From contig NZ_JABJVV010000007.1 in assembly GCF_013155545.1 (NCBI RefSeq), positions 62,001 to 126,000 of the forward strand: 64,000 nt of DNA, in the 5' to 3' direction. The notes under the pieces were generated by a model. The model made no database searches, had not been told where the DNA came from, and saw only the letters and a list, made by a program, of their open reading frames with translations. The position numbers and the translations under genes were made by a program. Of this stretch, positions 840 to 15,669 are shown in pieces; positions within the stretch are counted from its first letter, which is position 1; each line of letters begins with the position of its first letter. This DNA is from Caenimonas soli. Lineage in GTDB: Bacteria; Pseudomonadota; Gammaproteobacteria; Burkholderiales; Burkholderiaceae_C.

Positions 840-1994
840 CTACAGCGCGCTTGCGCGCACGGAGGTGACCTTGCCGTCCTTAAGCATCCCGATATCGATG
901 TCGGACTGCGCGCGGCCGTCCTTGTCGAAACGCATGGTGCGAACGCCATCGTACTTCATGTCCTTCACCTTCGCCGTTATCGCCTTGATGTCGGTGGTCG
1001 AGCCGACCTCCTCCATCGCGCGGGTCATCATGAACACGGTGTCATAGAACGTGAGGGCCCAGTAAGTGTTGGGCGAGACGTCCTTCTTGGTGAACGCCTT
1101 GTAGCGCTCGATCCAACCCTTGACCTTCGGGTCGGACGTGTTGTCCAGGTCGCGCGTGAGAATCTGCCACGTGAAGCCATCCACCGCCTTGGCATACTTG
1201 ATCGCCGGCGCGCCGGAGCCGCCGCGGTACATGAACTTCTTGGGCAGGCCGCCCAGTTCCGTCGCCTGGCGCAGGATCGCCTCGACCAGCGCGTCGTTGG
1301 TGCCGGTCAGCATGCCGTCCAGCCCCTGGTTCTGGAACTTGCGCAGCACTGGCGCGAAGTCCTGCGTGTCAGGCTGGAAATACTCGACGATCGACACCTG
1401 CACGCCGTTCGCTTCCAGCAGCGGCTTGTAGATGGCGACGATGCTGCGGCTCACGTCCTCGTTGGGCAGCATGATGCCGACCTTCTTCAGGCCCAGCTCC
1501 TTCACGCTCGTGGGGACGAACGATTTGGCTACCGTGGCGTCGTTGTTCAGCGTGCGGAACATGATGTCGGCACCGGGCTTGCCCAGCAGCGTGTCCATGA
1601 GCGTGAAGCCGCCGAAGTACAGCACCTCGTTCTTCGAGAACAGCGTCGCCGCGGCCATGCCAGGGCCGCTGGTAAGCACCCCGAAGATGACCTTGATGTC
1701 GTCATCGCGCAGCAGGCGCTGGGCGCCCGCCACCGCGAACTCGGGCTTGGACTGCGCGTCCTCCGAGACCGCTGCAAGCGTGTATTTTCGCCCCTTGACG
1801 GTGACGCCGCCGCGCTTGTTGATCTCGTCCACGGCCATCAGTACGCCTTCACTGGCCGGCAGGTCGAAGCTCGAGTGCGGGCCCGTCAGGCTGTTGACCA
1901 TGCCGAGCTTGATGGTCTGCGCGAAGCAGGAAGTAGCCAGCGCGAAGCCGGCCAGGGTCATCGCGCCGAGGCGCGCAATGTTTCGGTAATTCAT
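840..1994 (-). CDS. Periplasmic substrate-binding protein of a Liv-type ABC transporter
   Basis: The product is 384 aa, a usual length for the Leu/Ile/Val-binding (Peripla_BP_6) family. It has a Sec signal peptide at about residues 1-26 (MNYRNIARLGAMTLAGF..., cleavage after CFA), then the family start TIKLGMVNSLTGPHSSFDLP. It should capture the solute in the periplasm and deliver it to the LivH permease encoded 19 bp downstream. It lies 15 bp after the acyl-CoA synthetase gene, which suggests an uptake-plus-activation operon. The ligand cannot be read from the sequence. Carboxylic or aromatic acids are common ligands of such paralogues in Burkholderiales. Confidence 0.9.
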   Translation of the reverse strand: MNYRNIARLGAMTLAGFALATSCFAQTIKLGMVNSLTGPHSSFDLPASEGVLMAVDEINKRGGVTVKGRKYTLAAVSEDAQSKPEFAVAGAQRLLRDDDIKVIFGVLTSGPGMAAATLFSKNEVLYFGGFTLMDTLLGKPGADIMFRTLNNDATVAKSFVPTSVKELGLKKVGIMLPNEDVSRSIVAIYKPLLEANGVQVSIVEYFQPDTQDFAPVLRKFQNQGLDGMLTGTNDALVEAILRQATELGGLPKKFMYRGGSGAPAIKYAKAVDGFTWQILTRDLDNTSDPKVKGWIERYKAFTKKDVSPNTYWALTFYDTVFMMTRAMEEVGSTTDIKAITAKVKDMKYDGVRTMRFDKDGRAQSDIDIGMLKDGKVTSVRASAL

Positions 1995-2009: not shown

Positions 2010-3569
2010 CTAGACGTTCCAGAACTGTTCTCGCAACTCCCTGCGCAGTACCTTGCCCATGCTGTTGCGCGGCAAGGCATCCAGAGTGAACAGCGACCTC
2101 GGGTGCTTGTAGCGGGCGAGACGGCTGCTGCAGAAGTCGACGACTTCTTCAATCGTGAGTGTCTCGCCGGGCAGGACCACGACGCAGGCGCGGGGCGACT
2201 CGCCCCACTTCTCGTCGGGCACGCCGACCACTGCGACCTCGTAGACCTTGGGATGCTCGGCGAGCACGCGCTCGATCTCGGCGGGATAGACGTTTTCGCC
2301 GCCGGAGACGATCAAGTCCTTCTTGCGGTCGAGGATGTGCAGGAAGCCCCGCTCGTCGATAAAACCGATGTCACCGCCGGTCTCCCACCGGCCCGTGCGC
2401 ATGGCGCGCGTGGCGTCCTCATTCTCGTGGTAGCCCAGGAAGGGCACTGGATTGCAGGCGTGGATGACGCCTTCGCGGCCGCGCGGCATTTCCTCCCCGC
2501 TCTCGTCGAGAATCGCGATCTCGCAACCAAAGGACGGGCGGCCGAGCGAACGGTCGCTGGCGAGGATTTCCTCGTGCGGGCAGTACGTGATCCAGCCGCT
2601 CTCAGTCCAACCATAAGTGTCCGACAGGCGTGCGCGCGGAAAGCCGGCCTCGAAACCTTCGACCGTCGACAGCTGCAAGCGCGAGCCCGAGCTCATGAGG
2701 CCGCGCAGCCGCGGCAGCTCGAGCGTGCGGCCCGCGTTGCCGGCCGCGCTCACCAGCGCAGCCAGCATGGTGGGCACCAGGAACGCCCACGTAATGCCGT
2801 ACGTCTGCATGTCGTCGAGCGAACGCTCGGGGGAAAAATCGCGTCGAAGCACCACCTTGCCACCCACGGCCAGCGTGATGAGCGAGACCGAGCCGAACGA
2901 TTGGTGGAAGATCGGCCCCGGCACGAGCGTGACCTCCTCCTCGGTGATGCCGTAGCGCCAGCCCCAGGAAGCAAAGCGCGAGAGGATCACTGCGTGGCTC
3001 ATCACCGCACCCTTGGGAAACCCGGTCGTTCCCGACGTGTAGAAGATCGCCGCCGGATCGTTCAGGCCGAACGCGCGCGGCGGAATCGTCGCAGCCGCAC
3101 CTGCGATCGCGCGCTCGAACGCGTGTTCATGATCGCTGGCGGGACCGTAAACGATGGATACGCCCGGCACGCGCTTGCCGGTTTCGCGGAGGGTCTTCAA
3201 GTGACCCAGGTACTCCGCGCCGATGAGAAGCCCCTTTGCGCCGGAGTTGTCCAGAAGGTAGGAAAGCTCGGGCGGGGTGAGGCGGTAATTGGCCGGCACA
3301 GCCACCAGCCCCGCCAGTTGCAGGCCGATGTAGCTTTGCAGGTATTCGGGGCTGTTCTGCGCGAACAGCGCGACGCGGTCACCGGTTTTCAGGCCGCGCG
3401 CCAGCAGCGAATTCGCGAGGCGCACGGCGCCGTCCCAGAACTGCGCGTACGTGAGCCGTCCGCGGTCGTGTTCGATGGCAATGGCGTTCGGGTCGCGCTG
3501 CACGGCCACGCGAACGAGGTCGGCGAGGCAGGTGACGTGGGGAGACGGGGCGATGGGCATGGGGGACAT
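2010..3569 (-). CDS. AMP-forming acyl-CoA synthetase (ANL superfamily)
   Basis: This 519-aa enzyme would activate a carboxylate with ATP and CoA. The adenylation motifs appear in order: YTSGTTGFPKGAVMSHA (P-loop, about residue 175), TYGWTESG (A5), GGDIGFIDERGFLHILDRKKD (A7/A8 hinge), SGGENVYPAEIERVL, and the C-terminal lysine motif RNSMGKVLRREL. It is the first gene of the acs-binding protein-livH unit and has its own promoter with a palindromic operator in the leader. Two in-frame ATGs compete, 3569 and 3560. The second has AGGA nine bases upstream and may be the true start. Acyl-chain specificity is unknown. The TetR circuit links it to the P450 operon. Confidence 0.9.
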   Translation of the reverse strand: MSPMPIAPSPHVTCLADLVRVAVQRDPNAIAIEHDRGRLTYAQFWDGAVRLANSLLARGLKTGDRVALFAQNSPEYLQSYIGLQLAGLVAVPANYRLTPPELSYLLDNSGAKGLLIGAEYLGHLKTLRETGKRVPGVSIVYGPASDHEHAFERAIAGAAATIPPRAFGLNDPAAIFYTSGTTGFPKGAVMSHAVILSRFASWGWRYGITEEEVTLVPGPIFHQSFGSVSLITLAVGGKVVLRRDFSPERSLDDMQTYGITWAFLVPTMLAALVSAAGNAGRTLELPRLRGLMSSGSRLQLSTVEGFEAGFPRARLSDTYGWTESGWITYCPHEEILASDRSLGRPSFGCEIAILDESGEEMPRGREGVIHACNPVPFLGYHENEDATRAMRTGRWETGGDIGFIDERGFLHILDRKKDLIVSGGENVYPAEIERVLAEHPKVYEVAVVGVPDEKWGESPRACVVVLPGETLTIEEVVDFCSSRLARYKHPRSLFTLDALPRNSMGKVLRRELREQFWNV

Positions 3570-3579
3570 CCTGGCTAAC

Positions 3580-3593
3580 TAAGCGCCCGCTTA
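3580..3593. promoter_or_regulatory. Perfect palindromic operator (TAAGCG-CC-CGCTTA)
   Basis: This is a perfect 14-bp palindrome with 6-bp arms and a 2-bp spacer, just downstream of the predicted start of transcription of the acyl-CoA synthetase operon. Near-identical palindromes occur at 9400-9413 and 9422-9435. A TetR-family regulator is encoded at 10353-11018, so I infer these are its binding sites. A regulator bound here would block early transcription. Confidence 0.65.
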
Positions 3594-3606
3594 TCGGCTT
3601 GCTGTG

Positions 3607-3666: not shown

Positions 3667-4923
3667 TCATGCCGCCACCAGCCTTTTCAGCTCGACTGAG
3701 AGATCGGCGAGGGCATCAGGGTCCACCCGCACTCCCGCGGCGACCCACTTCCTGGCCAGCATGAATTCGGCGGGGCGATTGACGGCGTCCGCCGCAATGA
3801 TGACTCCGCCTCTCAGGTAGAACGCCGTGAACGCGTGGGCCGCCATGTCGCCCCGGATCGCGACGGCGTCATGCCCGCGCGAGAGGCCCACCATCTGCAA
3901 TTTCAGGTCATATTGATCCGACCAGAACCAGGGCACGCCGTGGCAAGGCTGGTGTTGTCCGCACAAGGTCGCCGCGGCAGTGCGCGCCTGTTCGGCGGCG
4001 TTGGGCACGCTTTCGATGCGGAAGTGGCCGGTGTGGCCCGGCACGGGTCGGCTGGTGCAGTCGCCGGCCGCGACGATCGCGGGGTCGGACGTGCGGCACA
4101 GCTCGTCGACTATGATGCCGTCGTGCGAACACGTGAGGCCGGCGGCTTGCGCGAGTTCGACATTGGGCATCACGCCCACGCCCGCGACCACGATCTCGGC
4201 TTGCGTGCAGCCGTGGCCACCGGCTGCATCTTTCCACAGCACGCCGCTTACTGATCCGTTGGAGGCGAATTCAAACCCTTCCACCTGCACGCCCGTGCGC
4301 ACGTCCGCGCCCGCGTCGCGATGGACCTTCTCGTAGAAGGCCGACAACTGTGCTGCCGTCACGCGAGAGAGCACGCGCGGTTGCGCCTCCAGCACCGTGA
4401 CCTTGAGCCCGCGCTTGATCGACAGCGCAGCGAGTTCCAGGCCGATGTAGCCGCCGCCGATCACGACGATGCGCGCGCCTTCTTCCAACTGGGGGCGCAG
4501 CCGCTGTGCGTCGGCGAGTGTGCGCAGGCAATGGACGTTCGGCGCCTGTTCCGCGCGTTCGGCGCCGGGGAGCGCAAGCCGCCGCGCCCGCGCTCCGGTG
4601 GCGATGGCCAACTGCGAGTAGGCGATGGACTCGCCGGATTCGAGCACGATACGCCCGGCCGCGCGGTCGATGGCCGACACACGGGCGCCGGGACGCACAG
4701 CGATTCCTGCCGCCTCATAGGCCGCTGCGTTGCGGATGAGGAGCGGATCGATAGCTGCGTTCGGATCGCCTAGCCATGTCTTCGACAGAGGTGGGCGCTG
4801 GTAGGGCAGCACCGGCTCGTCCCCCAGAAGCAGCACGGGCACCGAGGGGTCGAGCTGCCGCAACTTGGCGGCGAGCTCAGAGCCCGCGTGGCTGGCGCCG
4901 ATGATGACGCGCGGCTCTGTCAT
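3667..4923 (-). CDS. FAD-dependent NAD(P)H:ferredoxin reductase (rhodocoxin/putidaredoxin reductase type)
   Basis: This 418-aa flavoprotein should pass electrons from NAD(P)H to the small ferredoxin encoded in the same operon and so to the P450. An N-terminal dinucleotide motif GASHAGSELAAKLRQ binds FAD. A second Rossmann motif GGGYIGLELAAL near residue 150 binds NAD(P)H. The late FAD motif DPAIVAAGDC is near residue 280. I chose ATG at 4923 (MTEPRVIIGASHAGSE) rather than the longer upstream frame because it gives the family length and an ATGA overlap with the acyl-CoA dehydrogenase stop. It is the last gene of the P450 operon. Confidence 0.88.
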   Translation of the reverse strand: MTEPRVIIGASHAGSELAAKLRQLDPSVPVLLLGDEPVLPYQRPPLSKTWLGDPNAAIDPLLIRNAAAYEAAGIAVRPGARVSAIDRAAGRIVLESGESIAYSQLAIATGARARRLALPGAERAEQAPNVHCLRTLADAQRLRPQLEEGARIVVIGGGYIGLELAALSIKRGLKVTVLEAQPRVLSRVTAAQLSAFYEKVHRDAGADVRTGVQVEGFEFASNGSVSGVLWKDAAGGHGCTQAEIVVAGVGVMPNVELAQAAGLTCSHDGIIVDELCRTSDPAIVAAGDCTSRPVPGHTGHFRIESVPNAAEQARTAAATLCGQHQPCHGVPWFWSDQYDLKLQMVGLSRGHDAVAIRGDMAAHAFTAFYLRGGVIIAADAVNRPAEFMLARKWVAAGVRVDPDALADLSVELKRLVAA

Positions 4924-6044
4924 CGCCTGGTTCCTTCCTGGGGTAGCAGGCGCCGCGCCACGACCAGGTGGTTCAGGACCGACGTGCCGTCCACCACGGC
5001 CATCATTCGGGCGTCTCCGGAAAGCTCCGCCAGCGGATGCGAGGCATGCAGGGACGACGAGCCCAGCAAGTCTTCGGTCCATCGGCAGGCGTCCAGGGCC
5101 AGTTCGCCCGCGAGCGCCTTCGCAGCCGAAGCCATGGCCACGCTATCCGCGCCCGCCAGCTCGCCGGCCACCTTCAGGCACAACAGCCGCACCGCCTCAC
5201 ACCGGGCCACGAGTTGTGCGAGCCCATGCTGAACGAGCGAGCTCGAAGCCAGCGGTGTGCGGGCCGCCACGCGCACGCCCGCGTAGTCGCGCGCAATGTC
5301 GAGGGCCGCGCGTGCAATCCTGAAAGCCTGCAGTGCGGCAAGCACGCGCGCGATGGGAAAAGCAGACTTCGTTCCCTTCAGTCCCTCGCCTTCGGCGCCC
5401 AGGCGCAGCTCGGCGGGAATCTCGCACCCGCGGAACGTCAATCGCGCGAACCCGAGGTGGCGCAGACCGACGGGCTCGAGCGCCTCGCGCGTGAGTCCGG
5501 GTGTGTCGCCAGGAACGAGGAAGCGGGTCAAGCCGACTTCGCTGCGCGCGAGCACAACGATCATGGTTGCGGCCAGGCCGTGCGTCACCCAGGTCTTCTC
5601 GCCGTCGATCACGTACACATCTCCGGCACGGCGGGCCGTGGTCGTCATGCGCTCGAGGTCCGAACCGGCATGCGTCTCCGTCATCGCGATCGCGCCGATG
5701 CCCTCGCCTTCCAGCAGCGAAGGCATGAAGCGCTCTTGCTGGCCAGGGCTTGCAAACTGGTGCAGATAGCGCTGCACGCTGTGATTGCCCAACAGGGCCA
5801 GTTGCGGCGACAAGCCTTCAACGAGTGCAGAAAATTCGAGCACGTCCAGCCCGTGGCGGCCTTCTTCAGGCGGTAGGGTCGATGCGAGATAGCCCGTCGG
5901 CGCCAGTTCCCGGAAGATCGCGCGCAGCTCGCCCGCGTCGAACGGGCGCCCCTTGGGCCTAGGATGCGCGGCAGCCACTTTCTCGGCCTGCTCGAACAGG
6001 GCGCGTTCGCGCGTCGTGGAAGCGAAGCGATTGTTGTCTTGCAC
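4920..6044 (-). CDS. Acyl-CoA dehydrogenase with a substituted catalytic glutamate position
   Basis: This FAD enzyme should oxidise an acyl-CoA at the alpha-beta bond. The start is GTG at 6044, two bases after the CoA-transferase stop with AGGA upstream, giving 374 aa. Family motifs include IAMTETHAGSDLERM and VIDGEKTWVTHGLA. The C-terminal motif that normally reads YEGT, with the catalytic base, reads VVDGTSVLNHL here, so Asp352 sits where the common Glu would be. Either Asp serves, the base lies elsewhere (as in isovaleryl-CoA dehydrogenase types), or chemistry is altered. It is coupled to the ferredoxin reductase by an ATGA overlap. Confidence 0.85.
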   Translation of the reverse strand: MQDNNRFASTTRERALFEQAEKVAAAHPRPKGRPFDAGELRAIFRELAPTGYLASTLPPEEGRHGLDVLEFSALVEGLSPQLALLGNHSVQRYLHQFASPGQQERFMPSLLEGEGIGAIAMTETHAGSDLERMTTTARRAGDVYVIDGEKTWVTHGLAATMIVVLARSEVGLTRFLVPGDTPGLTREALEPVGLRHLGFARLTFRGCEIPAELRLGAEGEGLKGTKSAFPIARVLAALQAFRIARAALDIARDYAGVRVAARTPLASSSLVQHGLAQLVARCEAVRLLCLKVAGELAGADSVAMASAAKALAGELALDACRWTEDLLGSSSLHASHPLAELSGDARMMAVVDGTSVLNHLVVARRLLPQEGTRR

Positions 6045-6046
6045 GG

Positions 6047-7129
6047 TCAGTCCTGCTGCGGCAAGCCGGGTGGAGGGCGCGGTTCGCCACGCTGTGTGGT
6101 TTCGAATTCGAGTGGCATGCGCACGTGCATGACCTCCCCCAGGCGGAACAACATCCCGCGTTGAAGCAATTCCTCGTCGCGCAGCACCTCGGCATAGCTG
6201 CGCTCGGGACCACATGGCACGCCCGCGGCGCGCAGCAGCGCCGTCCACTCAGCGCGCGACTTCGTGCGCATCGCGGGGCCGAACATCTCCTCGATGCGGG
6301 GCTGCGCGGCGCAGCGCTGTTCATTGGTGGCGAAGTCGGGATGCTCCGCCCAGTCGCCGCGGCCCGCCGTGCGGCACAGGGCCTGCCAGTGCCTGCTGGT
6401 CAGCACCGTCGTGAGAAGCCGCCCGTCCGCAGTGTCGAACATCGGCGTGCAGGAGACCGTCGAATGATTGCCATTGCGCCGCGCAAACGCGGGATCGGCA
6501 TGGAAGAGGCCGATCTGCGGGTACTGCATGTACAGGCACGTGTCGGCGAGTGATATCTGGATGGCGTCGCCCTCGCCCGTCTGGCGGCGGTTCTCGAGCG
6601 CGGCGAGCACACCGAGCGCCGCCCAGACGCCGGTGGTCACGTCGACGACGGAGGCCCCCGTGCGATAGCCCGGCCCTGACACCGGGCCGGTGGAATTCAT
6701 CAAGCCCGTCGACGCCTGGGCGAGCCCGTCGGTGCCTGCAGGCCCGCCCGCGCCGAAGCCCGTCACGAGCACCGTAATCAGGCGCGGCTGCACTGCGCGC
6801 AGCGTAGCGCTGTCCAGCCCCGCGCGTTTGAGCATGGCGGGCGCGAGGTTGGAGATCACGACGTCGGCTTTGACTGCTAGCGCGCGCGCTCGATGCGCCT
6901 GCTCGGGTACGGTGATGTCGAGCAGCACCACGTCCTTGCTGCGATTCGTCGATGCGTACAGCGCGGCGACATCGCCCGCCATCGGACCCATGCGGCGCGT
7001 GATGTCACCTTGCGGCGGCTCGACCTTCATGACGCTTGCGCCGAGGTCCGCCAGCACTTGCCCGCAGGACGGCCCCGCGACCATGTGCGTGAACTCCACG
7101 ACCTTCAGCCCCGTGAGGACGGCGGCCAA
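6047..7129 (-). CDS. Class III CoA transferase (CaiB/BaiF family)
   Basis: This 360-aa protein belongs to the formyl-CoA/carnitine CoA-transferase family, which moves CoA between carboxylic acids. It begins LKVVEFTHMVAGPSCGQVLADLGASVMKVEPP and carries IQISLADTCLYMQ near residue 195, where the Asp is the candidate acyl-anhydride nucleophile. The only start giving the full N-terminal family motif is TTG at 7129, preceded by a strong GGGGAGGGA ribosome site and one base after the upstream stop. It could activate a substrate of the P450 pathway using succinyl-CoA or recycle CoA from a product; which one is unknown. Confidence 0.86.
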   Translation of the reverse strand: MAAVLTGLKVVEFTHMVAGPSCGQVLADLGASVMKVEPPQGDITRRMGPMAGDVAALYASTNRSKDVVLLDITVPEQAHRARALAVKADVVISNLAPAMLKRAGLDSATLRAVQPRLITVLVTGFGAGGPAGTDGLAQASTGLMNSTGPVSGPGYRTGASVVDVTTGVWAALGVLAALENRRQTGEGDAIQISLADTCLYMQYPQIGLFHADPAFARRNGNHSTVSCTPMFDTADGRLLTTVLTSRHWQALCRTAGRGDWAEHPDFATNEQRCAAQPRIEEMFGPAMRTKSRAEWTALLRAAGVPCGPERSYAEVLRDEELLQRGMLFRLGEVMHVRMPLEFETTQRGEPRPPPGLPQQD

Positions 7130-7130
7130 T

Positions 7131-7922
7131 TCAATCCCTCCCCAGCGGCCGCCGCGGCGGGCCGTCGTAGGTGATCTCTTCGTCGGGCACGTGGCGCCAT
7201 CCCGCCTCGCGCGTCATCTCCTCCAGCGCGTGAACGGCCAAGCCGGCGCTGCGGGGCATGAAGGCCAGCGCGCGCAACAGGCGCCAGTCGAATCCCATGT
7301 CCAGTCCCAACGCACCCAGCGCGCCGTCCTGATTCATCGGCAGCTTGCGGCCTTTCACCTTGAGGAGCGCGTCTTCCATCGCAAGCGCAAGGCGCGAGTA
7401 GTCGCCTGTTACCCCGTTGGCGTCGGCAATGCGGTACAGGCGCGGCACCCGCGGATCCCCTTCGGGATGCAGCGCATGCCCGTAGCCCGGCACCTTGCGG
7501 CCTTGCGAGAAAAAGTGCTTCACGATCGCGCTGGCTGCCTGCTCCTGCGTTTCGCGCCCTGCGCGGATTTCCGGAACGTGCGCCGCGAGTTGCTCACCCA
7601 GTTGCTCGCACGCGCCCCCGTAGGTGTCGCCGAAGGCCATGACGCCGCCGGCGACCGCCGCCTGGATCGGCGAGCCGGCGGAAGCGAGGTAGCGCGTCAC
7701 GATGCTCGACGGCACGATGCCGTGATCCAGCACGGAGACCATCATGGCGTCCAGCAGCTTCGCATGGCCGGGCGGCGGCAGTTCGCCTGTGGCCAGCAGC
7801 AGGAACGCTTCGGCGAAGGACACCTTGCCAACCAGTTCCGCGAGGTCGTAGCCGCGCAGCACCACCGAATGCTTGTCGCCATAGGAGATGGCCGTGCGCC
7901 ACTTGTCGCGCGTAGCGCTCAT
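7131..7922 (-). CDS. Short citrate-synthase-fold protein (citryl-CoA lyase-like)
   Basis: At 263 aa this is far shorter than citrate synthase (about 370-430 aa). It keeps the central and C-terminal catalytic region: KVPGYGHALHPEGDPRVPRL near residue 140 supplies the conserved His/Arg element, and LPMNQDGALGALGLDMGFD follows. Databases usually label such proteins citryl-CoA lyase or citrate synthase family. Known relatives make or break C-C bonds next to a CoA thioester, so a retro-Claisen cleavage or condensation in this pathway is possible; that is inference. ATG at 7922 overlaps the ferredoxin stop by four bases. Confidence 0.75.
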   Translation of the reverse strand: MSATRDKWRTAISYGDKHSVVLRGYDLAELVGKVSFAEAFLLLATGELPPPGHAKLLDAMMVSVLDHGIVPSSIVTRYLASAGSPIQAAVAGGVMAFGDTYGGACEQLGEQLAAHVPEIRAGRETQEQAASAIVKHFFSQGRKVPGYGHALHPEGDPRVPRLYRIADANGVTGDYSRLALAMEDALLKVKGRKLPMNQDGALGALGLDMGFDWRLLRALAFMPRSAGLAVHALEEMTREAGWRHVPDEEITYDGPPRRPLGRD

Positions 7923-8137
7923 TGCTGTTCCCCTTCATCAAAAACGAGAGAGATGGCCGACACCGGGCACATCTCCTCGGCCTCGCGCGCGGCGGCTTCG
8001 TCGAGCTCCGGCGAGATGTACCGGGCATGGCCATCGGGCTGGAACGCGAACTTGTCCGGATACGACGAAACGCACATGCCCGAGCCGACGCAGAGGTTCG
8101 GGTCGATGCGTACCGCGATCAACTTGCGCTGGGTCAT
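7919..8137 (-). CDS. Small P450-type ferredoxin (three-cysteine, [3Fe-4S]-like)
   Basis: This is a 72-aa ferredoxin. Visible cluster ligands are CVGSGMC (Cys16 and Cys22) and MCPVSAIS (Cys57). The Cys-x2-Ser-x2-Cys...Cys-Pro pattern is that of ferredoxins which serve cytochromes P450 and often hold a [3Fe-4S] cluster. The start MTQRKLIAV at 8137 lies two bases after the P450 stop. The adjacent P450 and the reductase further down the same operon supply its electron acceptor and donor. Confidence 0.9.
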   Translation of the reverse strand: MTQRKLIAVRIDPNLCVGSGMCVSSYPDKFAFQPDGHARYISPELDEAAAREAEEMCPVSAISLVFDEGEQQ

Positions 8138-8139
8138 GC

Positions 8140-9360
8140 TTACCCCAGCTGCAGGTAAATGGGCGCTTCGATGCTGCGACCGAGGATGCGAGGCTCCCAG
8201 CGAATGTCGCTCTTGACCTCCATCTTCGGAAAACGGCGCAGGATCTCGTTGAAGGCGATCTCGGCCTCCATGCGCGCGAGCGGCGCACCCAGGCAAAAAT
8301 GAATGCCGTGGCTGAACGACAGGTGTGGGTTGGGGTCGCGGGTGGCCACGAAGCGCTCTGGGTCCTGGAACTTCGCCGGGTCGCGGTTTGCCGCGCCCAT
8401 CAGCAGGAGGATCCGGTCCTCTTTGCGGATCTTCTGGCCGTGGATTTCCATGTCTTCACCGGCCAGCCGGATGGTGCCCTTGAGCGGCCCGTTGAAGCGC
8501 AGCCCCTCTTCGATCGCCGTCCTCATGCTCTGCGGGTTGTTGCGCAGGAACTCGAACTGCTCAGGCAGCTCCAGCAGCGTGGTGAGCGTGTTGCAGATCA
8601 GGGTCTGCGTCGTCTCGTGCCCCGCGTTGAGCAGGATGATGCAGGAATGCAGCACGTCGTCCACGGTGAGAAGCGGGTCGGTGCGCTGCACCTCCATGAG
8701 CCAGCTCATCATGTCGTTGCGCGGATTGTCGATGCGCTCGTCGTACAGCTCCTTAAGATAGGCCTTGAACTGGATGAGCGCGTCCTGGGCACGGTCCAGC
8801 CGCGTGTCGTCACCGACGCCGGCGAGCAGCAGGGTCGTGATGGCTTCCGCCCAATGCTGCAGCTTGTCCAGGTCCTCCCGGCGCGCGCCGATGATGGTCG
8901 AGATCACGTTGGCCGGAAGCGGGTAAGCGAACTCAGCGTTGAGGTCGATTGTCTTGCCGGCCTCCCACTGGTCCAGGTGCCAGCGGACCATGTCCTCGGT
9001 GATGGCGCGCATGGTCTGGACGGCCTTGGGCGTGAATGCGCGGCTGAAAATGCGGCGCAGGCGCGTGTGATCCGGCGGGTCGGTGAAGACCACGAACGAG
9101 TGCAACGCCTCATAGGTCACCTTGTAGCGCTCGCGCTCGGCCTCGCTCAGCCGCTTCTGGTACCACGGCGTGATGCGGTCGGCAAGGAACTTGGGGCTGT
9201 GCAGCGTGGTGTAGACGTCGTCGTAACGGCTGAGCACCCAGCCGCGCCAGCGTTCGTTCCAGTAGCAGGGGAACTGCTCGCGCAGCGTCGCGTAGTACGG
9301 CGACGGGTTCTGGACGATCTCGTCGTCGAGCAGGTCGTCGTTGACAAGCGCGGTGGTCAT
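8140..9360 (-). CDS. Cytochrome P450 monooxygenase
   Basis: This 406-aa soluble bacterial P450 has all the signature elements: the I-helix oxygen-activation motif AGHETTQ near residue 247, the K-helix EGLRF, and the heme-thiolate loop FSHGIHFCLGAPLARME with Cys356 as axial ligand. No membrane anchor is visible. It is the first gene of a six-gene minus-strand operon that also encodes its ferredoxin and reductase. The beta-oxidation-type partners suggest it hydroxylates a carboxylic acid or its CoA ester before further breakdown. The substrate cannot be deduced. Transcription should start from the TTGACG/TATTAT promoter overlapping the palindromic operators. Confidence 0.94.
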   Translation of the reverse strand: MTTALVNDDLLDDEIVQNPSPYYATLREQFPCYWNERWRGWVLSRYDDVYTTLHSPKFLADRITPWYQKRLSEAERERYKVTYEALHSFVVFTDPPDHTRLRRIFSRAFTPKAVQTMRAITEDMVRWHLDQWEAGKTIDLNAEFAYPLPANVISTIIGARREDLDKLQHWAEAITTLLLAGVGDDTRLDRAQDALIQFKAYLKELYDERIDNPRNDMMSWLMEVQRTDPLLTVDDVLHSCIILLNAGHETTQTLICNTLTTLLELPEQFEFLRNNPQSMRTAIEEGLRFNGPLKGTIRLAGEDMEIHGQKIRKEDRILLLMGAANRDPAKFQDPERFVATRDPNPHLSFSHGIHFCLGAPLARMEAEIAFNEILRRFPKMEVKSDIRWEPRILGRSIEAPIYLQLG

Positions 9361-9399
9361 CTGGGTCTCCTTGCCGGAAATCGGAGGCCGCTCCGGCTC

Positions 9400-9435
9400 T
9401 AAGCGGTCGCTCAGTAAATGCTAAGCGCGTGCTTA
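9400..9435. promoter_or_regulatory. Tandem palindromic operators between the P450 and crotonase operons
   Basis: There are two 14-bp near-palindromes, TAAGCG-GT-CGCTCA (9400-9413) and TAAGCG-CG-TGCTTA (9422-9435), each one mismatch from perfect and 22 bp apart centre to centre (two helical turns). They match the perfect copy at 3580-3593. The second overlaps the -10 boxes of both divergent promoters, so one repressor bound here could silence both directions. The TetR gene at 10353 is the obvious candidate. Confidence 0.68.
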
Positions 9436-9463
9436 TAATATGCCTGCCGGCGCGACGCGTCAA
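9434..9463. promoter_or_regulatory. Divergent overlapping promoters
   Basis: Minus strand (P450 operon): -35 TTGACG (9463-9458), a 17-bp spacer, -10 TATTAT (9440-9435), an excellent sigma70 match. Plus strand (crotonase-tetR): a perfect -10 TATAAT at 9434-9439 but no clear -35. The two -10 boxes occupy the same bases in opposite strands, so the transcription units compete for or share RNA polymerase and are jointly exposed to the operator at 9422-9435. Confidence 0.6.
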
Positions 9464-9508
9464 CCGCCGCGGGCGGCCAACCCGCAAAGCTTTACTGGAG
9501 AATTCGAC

Positions 9509-10321
9509 ATGCCCGATTCCGTTTACGACGGTTACCGCCGCCTCCGCTTTGATCGCCCCCACCCACGCGTATTGCGCGTGACGCTGGACAACCCCGGCAA
9601 AAAGAACTCGATCGACGAGGTGATGCACCCGGAAATGGTCCGCGTGTGGCACGACATTTCCTATGACGACTCGGTGGCGTCGGTGATTCTTACCGGCGCC
9701 GGCGACGCGTTCTGCGCCGGCGGCAACTTCGAGATGGTCGACGGCATGATCGCCGAACACGAGGTGCGCATGAAGAACCTGCGAGAGGCGCGGGACGTCG
9801 TCTACAACATGATCAACTGCACCAAGCCGATCATCTCCGCGGTACGCGGGCCTGCCGTGGGCGGCGGCCTCGTATGCGCGCTTTTATCGGACATTTCGGT
9901 GGTGAGCAAGACCGCCAAGCTCATCGACGGCCATACGCGCCTTGGGCTGGCGGCGGGCGATCACGCGGCGATCATCTGGCCGCTGCTGTGCGGAATGGCG
10001 AGAGCGAAATATCACCTTCTCATGTGCACGACGCTGTCGGGCCAGGAAGCCGCCGATATCGGCCTCGTGTCCCTGGCCGTCGACGATGGCGAGGTGCAGG
10101 CCAAGGCGCTCGAAATCGCAAGCACGCTGGCGGAAGGCCCGCCAACCGCCATCCGCCTCACCAAGTACACGATGAACCACTGGCTGCGCATGGCCGGGCC
10201 GATCTTCGATGCTTCGCTTGCCTTTGAATTCCACGGCTTCACCGGCCCGGAGCTGAAGGAGGGCCTGGCCGCCATCCGCGAGAAGCGCAAGCCGAATTTC
10301 CCGACGCACAGCGCGTTCTGA
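9509..10321 (+). CDS. Enoyl-CoA hydratase/isomerase family (crotonase fold)
   Basis: This 270-aa crotonase-fold protein starts at ATG 9509 (MPDSVYDGYRRLRF) with GGAG at 9497-9500. The CoA-binding and oxyanion-hole features GAGDAFCAGGNFEM and AVRGPAVGGGLVCALL are present. The stretch that normally carries a catalytic Glu (PEI.LG) reads DGHTRLGLAAGD, so at least one hydratase glutamate is absent and the reaction may be isomerisation, hydrolysis or ring/C-C cleavage rather than simple hydration. It diverges from the P450 operon and precedes the tetR gene by 31 bp, probably on one transcript. Confidence 0.87.
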   Translation: MPDSVYDGYRRLRFDRPHPRVLRVTLDNPGKKNSIDEVMHPEMVRVWHDISYDDSVASVILTGAGDAFCAGGNFEMVDGMIAEHEVRMKNLREARDVVYNMINCTKPIISAVRGPAVGGGLVCALLSDISVVSKTAKLIDGHTRLGLAAGDHAAIIWPLLCGMARAKYHLLMCTTLSGQEAADIGLVSLAVDDGEVQAKALEIASTLAEGPPTAIRLTKYTMNHWLRMAGPIFDASLAFEFHGFTGPELKEGLAAIREKRKPNFPTHSAF

Positions 10322-10352
10322 CCCTGGCGCATTTTTCTGCACAATACCTGCC

Positions 10353-11018
10353 ATGCCGTCCTACGTTACCCTGACCGAGCTTTTCCAGAAAAGAGTGGAC
10401 AGCGCGACCGTCCGCCGTCTCCTGCTGGCGGGCGTGGAGTGCTTCTGGCGCGATGGCTTTCACGCGTCCAATACGCGAGACATTGCCAAACGCGCAAAGC
10501 TCAGTCCCGCAGCGGTGTACGTGCACTTCGCGGCAAAGGAGGACCTGCTTTTTTCGATCATCCTGGCTGTGGCGGAAAACTTGCGAGAGCGGCTGCGTGA
10601 ACTCGCCTCCCAAGGCGGCTCCCCCACTGAGCTGCTGAGCCGCCTTGTTCACGCGTACGTCGCGCTGCCCGCGCGCATGTACAAGGCCTCACTCGTCGCG
10701 AATCGCGAGTTCAATTCCTTGACCCCCGCCCAGAGAAAGCAGATCGTCAAGATCCGGGACGAACTCGAGGCGATCGTGGGGGACTGCCTCGAAGCGGGGA
10801 AAGCCTCCGGCGAATTCGATTTTCTCGACGTATCGATCACCCGGATGGCGGTCGTCTCACTCTGTCGCTCTACTCTCCTGTGGTATTCCCCGCGTGGCAG
10901 GTTCACGCCCGAAGCGGTCGCCGACAACTATGTCACGCTCGTACTCGGGATGGTTGGCGCTAAGCCTCGATCGACCGAAAGCGCTTTGCCCCCGCTCTTG
11001 CGCGCTGCAGCACCGTGA
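10353..11018 (+). CDS. TetR/AcrR-family transcriptional regulator
   Basis: The product is 221 aa. The N-terminal helix-turn-helix is clear: GVECFWRDGFHASNTRDIAK followed by RAKLSPAAVYVHFAAKEDLL, the classic TetR recognition region at about residues 28-70. The C-terminal two thirds would form the ligand and dimer domain. It follows the crotonase gene by 31 bp. The three TAAGCG-N2-CGCTTA palindromes at the promoters of this locus are its likely targets, and an acyl-CoA intermediate a plausible inducer, by analogy with other TetR regulators of acyl-CoA catabolism. Both points are inference. Confidence 0.9.
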   Translation: MPSYVTLTELFQKRVDSATVRRLLLAGVECFWRDGFHASNTRDIAKRAKLSPAAVYVHFAAKEDLLFSIILAVAENLRERLRELASQGGSPTELLSRLVHAYVALPARMYKASLVANREFNSLTPAQRKQIVKIRDELEAIVGDCLEAGKASGEFDFLDVSITRMAVVSLCRSTLLWYSPRGRFTPEAVADNYVTLVLGMVGAKPRSTESALPPLLRAAAP

Positions 11019-11104: not shown

Positions 11105-11179
11105 TGGTGGGTGATGCAGGGTTTGAACCTGCGACCCCTGCCGTGTGAAGGCAGTGCTCTACCGCTGAGCTAATCACCC
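11105..11179 (-). tRNA. tRNA-Val (anticodon CAC)
   Basis: The 75-nt minus-strand sequence folds as a full cloverleaf: acceptor GGGTGAT pairing ATCACCC, D arm GCTC...GAGC, anticodon stem CTGCC/GGCAG around loop TTCACAC (anticodon CAC, reading GUG), and T arm GCAGG-TTCAAAC-CCTGC. The discriminator is A and the 3' CCA is encoded at 11105-11107. It lies 26 bp downstream of the dnaQ stop on the same strand. Confidence 0.97.
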
Positions 11180-13008: not shown

Positions 13009-15669
13009 ATGCGCATCCGATTCCAAACGGCGTGGCCCGCCATCGCTTTCGCCCTCTGCCTGGCAATCGCCGGCTGCGGCGGCAGTGGCGACGGCGAAAC
13101 CGCTGCTCTCACACCCGAGCCCGGCACCGCCAACGAAACCCAGCAGGTCGACCCAGCGGCCTTTTGCGAATCCGTCAAAGGCATGAGCCTTGCCGCTTCG
13201 CAGCTCACCCTGCCCACCGGCGGCGCCATCGTCATGACCGCGACCTTCGTCGCCAGCGGTGCGGGCAACGCCTACGGCGAGCACTGCCGGGTGCGCGGCC
13301 TGATCAAGCCCGTCGACACCGGCGCCCCCGACATCACGTTCGCCGTGAATCTTCCGACGGCCTGGAACGGCAAGGCCATCCACTTCGGGGGTGGAGGATT
13401 CAACGGCCGGCTGATCGACGGCACCGAAACCATACGCTTTGGCCCGCTGGAAAAGCCAGCGCCACTGACACTGGGCTACGCGACCTACGGCGACGACGGC
13501 GGGCATCAGAGCTCCAGCATCACCGACGGCCGGTTCGCCGCCAACGACGAATCGCTGGCCAACTATGGCGCACAGTCGCTCAAGAAAACCCGCGACGTCG
13601 CGATGCACCTGCTCCAGGCCCGCTACGGCAAGGCGCCCGCGAAAGCCTACTTCCTGGGAACCTCCACGGGCGGCCGCGATGCGCTCGGCTACATCCAGCG
13701 TTGGCCGGCCGACTATGACGGCGTCATCGCCAACGAGCCGGCGCTCAACTACACCGGCCTGCGGCTGTCCAACGTGGTGGTGGGACGCGCGCTCTATCTC
13801 AATGGCGGCGCGGGCTGGGTCAACGTGAACAAGACACTGCTGGTGCAGGACACGGTCCGGCGAACTTGCGACCGGCTCGACGGTGCGATCGACGGCATCG
13901 TCAGCAACGTGGAAAGCTGCAGGCAGCTCAATGCGCAGATTCTCGCCTCGCTGCGCTGCACGGGCGGCACCGACAATGGGGACAGCTGCCTGTCGGATGC
14001 CCAACTGGCCACCATCCAGGCGATCGAGTCGCCGCTGGAACTCACTCGCTACTCGCTGGCCAACGGCGTGAGCCGCTCCGGCGGGTACAACATCCTGGAA
14101 GGCGCGCTCGTGGCGGGGCCGTACACCACTCGCGACCTCGGCACCCGCCGCACCCCCGGCAACCCCGCCACGACGGCCGATGCCAACATGTACGTCACCG
14201 GCGACCAGTGGGTGAAGTACTTCGTCACGCGGGACGCGGGCATCGATTCGCTGACCTTTGATCCTTACGACCCGGGGCCCTGGACCAGCCGCGTGACAGC
14301 GGTTTCGGAATTGACCGATGCGCTGGACTCGAACCTCTCACCCTTCCTGTCCAAAGGTGGGCGCCTGATCCTGCTGCACGGCCTGGCGGATGAAGTGGTC
14401 AGCCCCAACTCGACCATCGACTACTACCAGCGCGTGATCACCACCGTGGGCCAGGATGCCGTGAGCCAGGGCGTGCGCTTCTACACCGTGCCCGGCATGG
14501 GCCACGGCACCGGCGTCTTCATCCCCGCCTGGGATTCGCTTGCCGCCGTGGAAAACTGGGTCGAAAAGGGCGTGGCGCCGGGCACCGGCGTGGCCTATGA
14601 CACCGTGGCCCAGACGTTCGGCCGCACGCGGCCGCTGTGCCAGTATCCGGCCTGGCCCAAGTACAAGGGCAGCGGCAGCCTGGATGCGGCCATCAACTAC
14701 AGCTGCAGTACCGAAACGCCCAATGCCCTGGCCTGCGCCAACCTGCCTGCCGCCGTCACGGCCTACAAGGGTGGCGATGCCTACGGCGAAGAGCTGACAC
14801 TGACGGTGGACCCCACGCAGCTGCGCTACACGGTGACCTTCGACGTCAGCCTGCAGCGCACCGCCGGGAGCCAGCGCAGCGGCGTGCTGGTACCGCAAGG
14901 CAACTGCACCTACAGCAGCGGCGAGAACGGCGCGATGTTCACACTGGGATCGGGCGGTATCGTGCATGGCGGTGTGGCCGCGCCTTCCGGCAGCACGTTC
15001 CTGCCCCTGGTGGCGTTCCAGAACCTGTTCCAGACCAAAGCAGGAACCAAGCCGTTCGAGGACATCGCCTTCGACTACAACGTGGTCGGCATCCACTACG
15101 GTGCGGGCGGCGCAGCCACTGCGTACAACGCGGCTGGCAAGATCCGCGACGCCGGCACCTGGCAAACCTGCCAGGACGCGACCAACGGCTTCATCGCCTT
15201 CTCGTCGACCTGCTCGCCCACGCGCAAAGGCTATCTGGCGTACGACGGCGCCCGCCGGGCCTCGGAAGCGATGCTCACCTCTACCACCAGCGGCTCCACT
15301 CCTACCACCGGCGGCACGTCGACCGGCTCCGTGGTCGCCGGCATGGTCAACGGCAACCCTGTTCCGCTCTACCTGGTGCGCGAATCGGCGACGAGCTATG
15401 GCATGCGCTTGTACGCGAAGCAGGCCACCTTCAGCTCGGGTAGCGCCGATGGCGTTTACCTGGCGGTCGGCACGAACGGAAACAACAACAGTGCAACAAT
15501 CGCGGGCACGTCGGTGGTGACGACGCTGGCATCAGGATCGCTGAGCTACAACACCCCGGTGGTCGGCGCGCATGCCTCGTCCGGCGGGCTCTCGGGCGCA
15601 TTCCTGTTCAACGGGGGCTTGTACGGCTTCACCTCGTCCGGCTACTTCGAGCTGGGTCTCCTGCGATGA
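13009..15669 (+). CDS. Tannase/feruloyl esterase family lipoprotein with long C-terminal extension
   Basis: The product is 886 aa. The signal peptide ends in a lipobox LAIAGC (Cys about residue 23), so it should be a lipid-anchored envelope protein. The alpha/beta-hydrolase part carries the nucleophile motif GTSTGGRD (Ser219) and late His motif PGMGHGTG. In tannase/FaeB enzymes these read GCSTGG and GMxHC, forming the CS-D-HC disulfide; both cysteines are absent here. From about residue 570 an unrecognised region follows, then a Thr/Ser/Gly linker near 757-776 and a roughly 110-aa terminal domain. It probably hydrolyses ester bonds of plant phenolics. Its stop overlaps the next gene (ATGA). 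Confidence 0.85.
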   Translation: MRIRFQTAWPAIAFALCLAIAGCGGSGDGETAALTPEPGTANETQQVDPAAFCESVKGMSLAASQLTLPTGGAIVMTATFVASGAGNAYGEHCRVRGLIKPVDTGAPDITFAVNLPTAWNGKAIHFGGGGFNGRLIDGTETIRFGPLEKPAPLTLGYATYGDDGGHQSSSITDGRFAANDESLANYGAQSLKKTRDVAMHLLQARYGKAPAKAYFLGTSTGGRDALGYIQRWPADYDGVIANEPALNYTGLRLSNVVVGRALYLNGGAGWVNVNKTLLVQDTVRRTCDRLDGAIDGIVSNVESCRQLNAQILASLRCTGGTDNGDSCLSDAQLATIQAIESPLELTRYSLANGVSRSGGYNILEGALVAGPYTTRDLGTRRTPGNPATTADANMYVTGDQWVKYFVTRDAGIDSLTFDPYDPGPWTSRVTAVSELTDALDSNLSPFLSKGGRLILLHGLADEVVSPNSTIDYYQRVITTVGQDAVSQGVRFYTVPGMGHGTGVFIPAWDSLAAVENWVEKGVAPGTGVAYDTVAQTFGRTRPLCQYPAWPKYKGSGSLDAAINYSCSTETPNALACANLPAAVTAYKGGDAYGEELTLTVDPTQLRYTVTFDVSLQRTAGSQRSGVLVPQGNCTYSSGENGAMFTLGSGGIVHGGVAAPSGSTFLPLVAFQNLFQTKAGTKPFEDIAFDYNVVGIHYGAGGAATAYNAAGKIRDAGTWQTCQDATNGFIAFSSTCSPTRKGYLAYDGARRASEAMLTSTTSGSTPTTGGTSTGSVVAGMVNGNPVPLYLVRESATSYGMRLYAKQATFSSGSADGVYLAVGTNGNNNSATIAGTSVVTTLASGSLSYNTPVVGAHASSGGLSGAFLFNGGLYGFTSSGYFELGLLR

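Follow-up and report, generated by a model that had tools for sequence, protein, structure and literature searches.

Parts of several described systems recur in a gene cluster of Caenimonas soli (assembly GCF_013155545.1, contig NZ_JABJVV010000007.1, positions 62,001-126,000; this whole stretch of 64,000 nt is called the window below), in which a cytochrome P450 is encoded beside a citrate-synthase-fold protein, a crotonase-fold protein and genes of coenzyme A (CoA) metabolism. The degradation of cyclohexanecarboxylate by BadH/BadI and AliA/AliB is similar in gene content: the island to which the cluster belongs likewise has a ligase, an acyl-CoA dehydrogenase fold, a short-chain dehydrogenase/reductase (SDR) and a BadI-like crotonase; the island differs in adding two P450s and a citrate-synthase-fold enzyme, and its proteins stay below the cut-offs of the BadI and cyclohexanecarboxyl-CoA dehydrogenase models. 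Camphor-type P450 pathways have the same order of chemistry that we propose here, namely hydroxylation, oxidation to a ketone and C-C hydrolysis, whereas the island has in addition CoA ligases, a CoA transferase, FadB and acid importers. The Anabaena beta-diketone hydrolase (ABDH) and 6-oxocamphor hydrolase resemble the crotonase of the window in their His, His, Asp, Glu set and in having no hydratase Glu pair, but the latter belongs to the EchA15/PRK07327 branch, matches them only at about E 1e-23 by phmmer, has a GGG loop and lies among CoA genes. The citryl-CoA lyase 6hxp and the PRK06224 subfamilies share with the citrate-synthase-fold protein a short single-domain citrate-synthase fold and the catalytic His and Asp, although 6hxp has an Arg after the catalytic His where the window protein, which sits in a P450/CoA catabolic operon, has an Ala. 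P450 BioI, finally, serves biotin synthesis, whereas the window P450 stands in a catabolic context with a ferredoxin of its own. To our knowledge no pathway has this combination of families, each of which is known individually.

Gene content, conserved gene order, common operator-like sites and the residues at catalytic positions are what we observe, and the reaction steps are inferred from them. We consider it quite possible, if short of probable, that roughly one third of a TetR-controlled island lies in the window and that this island serves the aerobic breakdown of a hydrophobic carboxylic acid, likeliest an alicyclic or terpenoid-like one, by hydrolytic and retro-aldol C-C cleavage.

Gene content and conserved order

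Genes were taken from the list of open reading frames (ORFs) and their translations, and families were assigned with Pfam, with named NCBIfam models added for some. The features of the cluster are the following (window coordinates):
840-1994, minus strand: ATP-binding cassette (ABC) solute-binding protein (Peripla_BP_6, LivK-like; Pfam)
2010-3569, minus strand: AMP-forming acyl-CoA ligase (Pfam)
3579-3594, no strand: operator-like palindrome TAAGCGGGCGCTTA in the ligase promoter region (pattern search), identically placed in all five genomes with the region on the contig
3667-4923, minus strand: FAD/NAD(P) ferredoxin reductase of the Reductase_C type (Pfam)
4920-6044, minus strand, GTG start: acyl-CoA-dehydrogenase-fold protein with Asp at the usual catalytic Glu (VVDGT; Pfam and alignments)
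6047-7129, minus strand: class III (CaiB/BaiF) CoA transferase, aligned Asp kept (Pfam, NCBIfam, alignment)
7131-7922, minus strand: citryl-CoA-lyase-type citrate-synthase-fold protein, His (GYGH) and Asp (MNQDG) kept (NCBIfam, PDB match, residue table)
7919-8137, minus strand: single-cluster ferredoxin, CxxSxxC...CP (Pfam and alignment, 6/6)
8140-9360, minus strand: cytochrome P450, closest solved match P450 BioI (Pfam and PDB)
9399-9435, no strand: two operator-like palindromes, 22 bp apart, in the divergent P450/crotonase promoter region (pattern search)
9509-10321, plus strand: crotonase-fold protein of the EchA15/PRK07327 family with residues of the beta-diketone-hydrolase type (NCBIfam, PDB alignments)
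10353-11018, plus strand: TetR-family regulator (TetR_C_24; Pfam), the probable island regulator, in 6/6 loci

The minus-strand genes run from P450 through ferredoxin, citrate-synthase-fold protein, CoA transferase and dehydrogenase-fold protein to reductase, successive genes overlapping by 4 bp or lying 1-2 bp apart; the ligase and the ABC solute-binding protein come after the reductase across a promoter-sized gap, and the crotonase-fold and TetR genes are divergent from the P450 operon. The initial annotation had described a coupled operon with these genes, together with genes for import and CoA activation, and the ORF coordinates and the Pfam and NCBIfam families agree with it on each of these points.

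When genome contigs were scanned with the citrate-synthase-fold protein, 45 pattern matches resulted, five of which encode relatives of 72-90% identity. The order of a seven-gene core, TetR-crotonase-P450-ferredoxin-citrate-synthase-fold-CoA transferase-dehydrogenase, is kept in all six loci (the window and five others), and because it recurs in other genomes at 44-91% protein identity, it is not due to chance. Ten genes, the core plus reductase, ligase and solute-binding protein, are found in five of the six; in the sixth, from Zhengella mangrovi (L005/L077), the contig stops just past the dehydrogenase gene, hence only seven. The reductase is 68-73% identical over nearly its full length in three loci (L001-L003) and matches over residues 6-196 only in L004, where the ligase match begins about 110 bp beyond the partial gene (L004:13030-13602), a deletion or an assembly fault. 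The ligase holds its position in four other loci at 76-81% identity, and relatives of the solute-binding protein (79-84% identical) directly follow it in the four other loci that reach so far; the window ligase passes no NCBIfam cut-off among the 25 best models shown.

The island extends beyond the window, measuring about 28 kb from an APH-family kinase to TetR, of which the window holds about 10 kb and about 17 kb precede its start. In addition to a second P450, ligase, crotonase, SDR and ABC importer, the stretch upstream of the window start in the same genome (C49:44001-62400, here L037) encodes two ABC ATPases, a FadB-like protein, an EamA transporter, a first SDR, a 2Fe-2S ferredoxin, a DUF2889 protein and the APH-family kinase; a permease presumably lies between the two ABC ATPases, as about 30% similarity in relatives and a reading by eye suggest. 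The second block proper, with the sister P450, ligase, BadI-like crotonase, two SDRs and LivK-type importer, spans L037:2700-12590 (C49:46700-56590). Its P450 is 57% identical to that of the window and is present in five of the six carrier genomes, at 80-100% identity and on the same contig as the first P450. The order of the blocks is held in genomes G859, G860 and G861 as far as the contigs reach, and in G862 the second block lies on the opposite side of TetR; the EamA gene was seen in the C. soli genome and in G861 only. Ferredoxin, DUF2889 protein and kinase are consecutive at the island end in C. soli (L037:752-2696) and in G861 (L074:5704-9905), where a second acyl-CoA dehydrogenase and a zinc-type alcohol dehydrogenase follow. 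The gene set of the initial annotation is thus present in full but incomplete, as the block with the second P450, ligase, crotonase and SDRs belongs to the same island. The same annotation had held that a lack of co-conservation in relatives would argue against its proposal, and what we find is the seven-gene order in six of six loci and the second P450 in five of six.

Catalytic residues of the divergent crotonase

The divergent crotonase belongs to the EchA15/PRK07327 family (397.5 bits against an NCBIfam cut-off of 292) and aligns over its length with 3qk8, 3q1t, 7m3w and 1wz8. 3q1t is reported to be devoid of both hydratase catalytic glutamates, with V126 and H146 there instead, and to match the Anabaena beta-diketone hydrolase at D155, H146, E244, D144 and H44; the D155, H146, E244 and H44 positions are known catalytic ones in the latter enzyme (PMC3584854). 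The numbering of 3q1t minus four gives the positions in the window protein, which carries V122, H142, D151, E240, D140 and H40 as expected, all of them invariant in the alignment of six orthologues. Neither glutamate of enoyl-CoA hydratase (rat E144 and E164) is therefore present, V122 and H142 taking their places, and the catalytic set of ABDH (H43, H144, D153, E243) has its counterpart, via 3q1t, in H40, H142, D151 and E240. Since the hydratase pair is missing and the beta-diketone-hydrolase set is in place, hydration by this protein, as the initial annotation had proposed, is unlikely, and we regard the protein as probably no hydratase. The better reading is that it hydrolyses a beta-dicarbonyl by a retro-Claisen reaction, although the published assignment of 3q1t is itself computational.

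Crotonases of this type also occur on plasmids. In six of seven such regions (L042-L048, picked from 20 listed of 76 matching records) the adjoining next gene is annotated as an SDR, a glucose 1-dehydrogenase or an NAD(P) oxidoreductase; in the seventh, from a Sulfitobacter plasmid, it is not an SDR-type or oxidoreductase gene. The annotations of these seven regions give no pathway name. On Rhodococcus opacus pROB02 a P450 and an APH-type phosphotransferase lie near the crotonase.

The citrate-synthase-fold protein

The citrate-synthase-fold protein exceeds the cut-offs of three citryl-CoA lyase subfamily models (NF004869, 250 bits against 212; NF004866, 248.7 against 245; NF004868, 220.1 against 193), stays under those of three equivalog models and has 6hxp as its best PDB match. 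The His (G[YF]GH) and Asp (NQDG) of citryl-CoA lyase are kept in all six orthologues. By comparison, among paralogues at 29 loci (L007-L035, of 37 paralogue matches listed) the catalytic His is kept in 29 and the Asp in only 6, being lost in the other 23. The citryl-CoA-lyase-like paralogues without the Asp probably differ in function, and C-C cleavage by the window enzyme, which keeps both residues, is plausible.

A shared operator-like palindrome

An operator-like palindrome resembling TAAGCG-N2-CGCTTA occurs at five sites in the three promoter regions of the island that were examined. The pattern TRAGCRNNCGCTTAG, derived from the window's own sites, finds three distinct sites in the window, one in the ligase promoter region and two in the P450/crotonase promoter region (5 strand-wise matches, compared with a mean of 0.12 and a maximum of 2 in 100 shuffles). 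Since these sites themselves supplied the pattern, independent tests come from the sites of the second P450, the other genomes and the whole-genome count. Outside the window, the palindrome stands twice before the second P450. In all five genomes with both blocks the same five sites recur, each with at most 1 mismatch to the consensus used, and every one of the 10 pairs shows the 22-bp spacing; the sites in Zhengella are weaker and differently spaced. In the 5.6-Mb genome of C. soli the wider pattern TRAGCRNNYGCTYA occurs at 13 places, compared with 1 for a reversed control. Six of the 13 have at least one TAAGC half, of which five are the island sites and one lies within a 776-codon open frame, and the other seven are of the TGAGC/GCTCA kind. 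On the P450 strand the first palindrome directly adjoins a TATTAT box that has a TTGAC element ahead of it, an arrangement that fits repression. We infer that the cluster's own TetR acts at this putative operator, and both blocks probably form one TetR regulon. Co-regulation of the ligase and transporter genes with the operon, which the initial annotation had assumed, is likely in view of the common palindrome.

Other enzymes of the island

The P450 has BioI as its best solved match (262.8 bits to 3ejb_B), and its translation contains HFCLG, EEGLR and AGHETT, which we take to be the heme-Cys, ExxR and AGxET motifs. The ferredoxin has the pattern CxxSxxC...CP with a Ser at one expected Cys ligand position in six of six orthologues, perhaps a sign of a 3Fe-4S type. 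With the FAD reductase, the three genes make up a full class I P450 chain, as previously noted, in which electron transfer is predicted from the genes.

For the CoA transferase the best NCBIfam model is succinate-glutarate CoA-transferase (190 bits, where the cut-off is 750). An Asp at what we take to be the catalytic position of class III CoA transferases is aligned with those of YfdE, SUGCT, 4ed9 and Rv3272 in all five printed alignments, two of which are of the same enzyme. A racemase reading of this CaiB protein was set aside, as it has Thr-Asp where racemases carry the catalytic His.

The dehydrogenase-fold protein scores 130.2 bits against the cyclohexanecarboxyl-CoA dehydrogenase model TIGR03207, under its cut-off of 575. 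The second crotonase has BadI as its top-scoring model, followed by MenB-type and Oah models, all under cut-off. Its gene (L037:7970-9301) encodes a Cys-rich end (CGSCGTDHLPEDHKFCGVCG) that looks like a fused zinc ribbon and scores 20.9 bits against PF09297, under the cut-off of 24.8.

Distribution

The cluster is rare among the sampled genomes. In 300 genomes of the order, only that of C. soli has a relative exceeding 39% identity to the citrate-synthase-fold protein, with 31 of the 300 matching at E 1e-30. At E 1e-70 the orthologue is present in 2 of 200 family genomes and in 1 of 398 phylum genomes, the latter being C. soli itself; P450 relatives at E 1e-90 are confined to the same two family genomes. 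Crotonase orthologues of 90-100% identity are likewise limited to these two, the next being 58% identical. Spread on plasmids was considered and rejected, as no match of at least 60% identity to the citrate-synthase-fold protein, the crotonase or the P450 was found in 72,556 plasmid records, of which 49, 76 and 8, respectively, match below 60%. The region of a P450 homologue at 37% identity indicated no pathway.

A proposed pathway and its alternatives

In the pathway that we propose, ABC importers would take up the acid and ligases would form its CoA thioester, after which the two related P450s, supplied by the reductase and small ferredoxins, would hydroxylate ring or chain and SDRs would turn the hydroxyls into ketones. 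Both crotonase-fold proteins, one beta-diketone-hydrolase-like and one BadI/MenB-like, would then hydrolyse C-C bonds, thereby opening rings and freeing new carboxylates, and it is because of these two proteins that an alicyclic or terpenoid-like substrate class is suggested. The class III CoA transferase could re-activate the freed carboxylate, and the dehydrogenase-fold protein and FadB could continue beta-oxidation. The citryl-CoA-lyase-type enzyme may come in where branching at the beta-carbon prevents thiolysis, splitting the tertiary 3-hydroxyacyl-CoA to give acetyl-CoA plus a ketone or keto acid. TetR would probably be released by one of the pathway's CoA thioesters.

Several observations weigh against this proposal. 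Its substrate and activities are predictions. In six of six orthologues the dehydrogenase-fold protein has an Asp (VVDGT) at the position of the short-chain-type catalytic Glu (EGT), which is a Glu in all five printed PDB relatives, two of them the same human enzyme; the protein may still be a dehydrogenase, and of the desaturation step put forward in the initial annotation the acyl-CoA-dehydrogenase fold stands (Pfam) while the step itself is uncertain. The second crotonase falls short of the BadI model TIGR03210 (135.1 bits, cut-off 467.6), and no thiolase was noticed among the genes identified, no search aimed at thiolases having been made. At the threshold used, the Zhengella draft assembly has one P450 only, the second being absent; in G860 the divergent SDR is broken across three frames, and in G862 it was not seen next to the second P450. 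The wider crotonase family is frequent (48 of 200 family genomes at E 1e-60) without close relatives of these P450s (2 of 200). As to the window crotonase, it has I156 where 3q1t has C160, one difference among the seven positions used, and it keeps the GGG run found in CoA-binding crotonases, which 6-oxocamphor hydrolase is not known to share. The re-annotation of 3q1t as a beta-diketone hydrolase is itself a computed prediction (PMC3584854).

The scheme of the initial annotation, in which import, CoA activation, P450 hydroxylation, desaturation and hydration by the crotonase lead to C-C cleavage by the citrate-synthase-like enzyme, draws on a gene set that is as it described (Pfam, NCBIfam) and on an enzyme that retains its catalytic pair. 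It is very unlikely, however, given a crotonase without both hydratase glutamates in six of six loci and a dehydrogenase-fold protein with Asp for Glu, and it leaves the second P450, the SDRs and the BadI-like crotonase without a role. The APH-family kinase at the island end in C. soli (L037:752-1792) and in G861 (L074, with the second acyl-CoA dehydrogenase next) would fit a route for branched or long-chain acids, not rings, in which the P450s would give gamma-hydroxy acids (4-hydroxyacyl-CoA) that enter beta-oxidation by way of the APH-type kinase and an acyl-CoA dehydrogenase, as described for LvaA/LvaC and ACAD10/11 (PMC12440821). Yet the kinase is present in two of the three genomes read past the second importer (not in G862), three other contigs ending before or soon after; NCBIfam offers no model that names it at E 1e-30, any kinship to LvaA is putative, and the two C-C-hydrolase-like crotonases would go unexplained, so that we regard this route as distinctly improbable.

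The closest solved match of the P450 could also be taken to imply a BioI-like role, the P450 oxidatively cutting a fatty acyl chain and the island making or trimming dicarboxylic acids. Likeness at such a distance does not fix a substrate, however, no biotin genes are among the neighbours identified, and the importers, ligases, CoA transferase and FadB speak for catabolism, which makes this role highly unlikely. The island might, finally, encode a pathway already characterised outside the open literature searched, such as one for terpenoids, resin acids or naphthenic acids. The initial annotation knew of no characterised pathway with exactly this set, and searches of open full-text literature for the set and for parts of it listed no description, a weak negative since subscription journals were mostly uncovered and several term combinations were strict; three island proteins, moreover, have no relative of at least 60% identity in the plasmid records, and we judge such a prior description unlikely. 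Returning to the proposed ring- or terpenoid-acid pathway, we hold more tentatively that it is an undescribed one, in which two P450s, hydrolytic cleavage of the EchA15 and BadI types, class III re-activation and the retro-aldol split of a 3-hydroxyacyl-CoA other than citryl-CoA would be united in one TetR regulon. Because the gene set is bounded and conserved and comes with a predicted inducer switch, this apparently uncharacterised catabolic pathway becomes directly testable. If the proposal is true, it would assign a physiological role to EchA15/PRK07327, a widespread crotonase family, present in mycobacteria, that is usually called enoyl-CoA hydratase and is probably mis-annotated, and a role outside citrate metabolism to a citrate-synthase-fold lyase.

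Flanking features

A tRNA-Val gene (window 11105-11179) adjoins the TetR end of the cluster and is a possible insertion point of the island. Further on, a large ORF (window 13009-15669) looks by eye like a tannase/feruloyl-esterase-like secreted protein.

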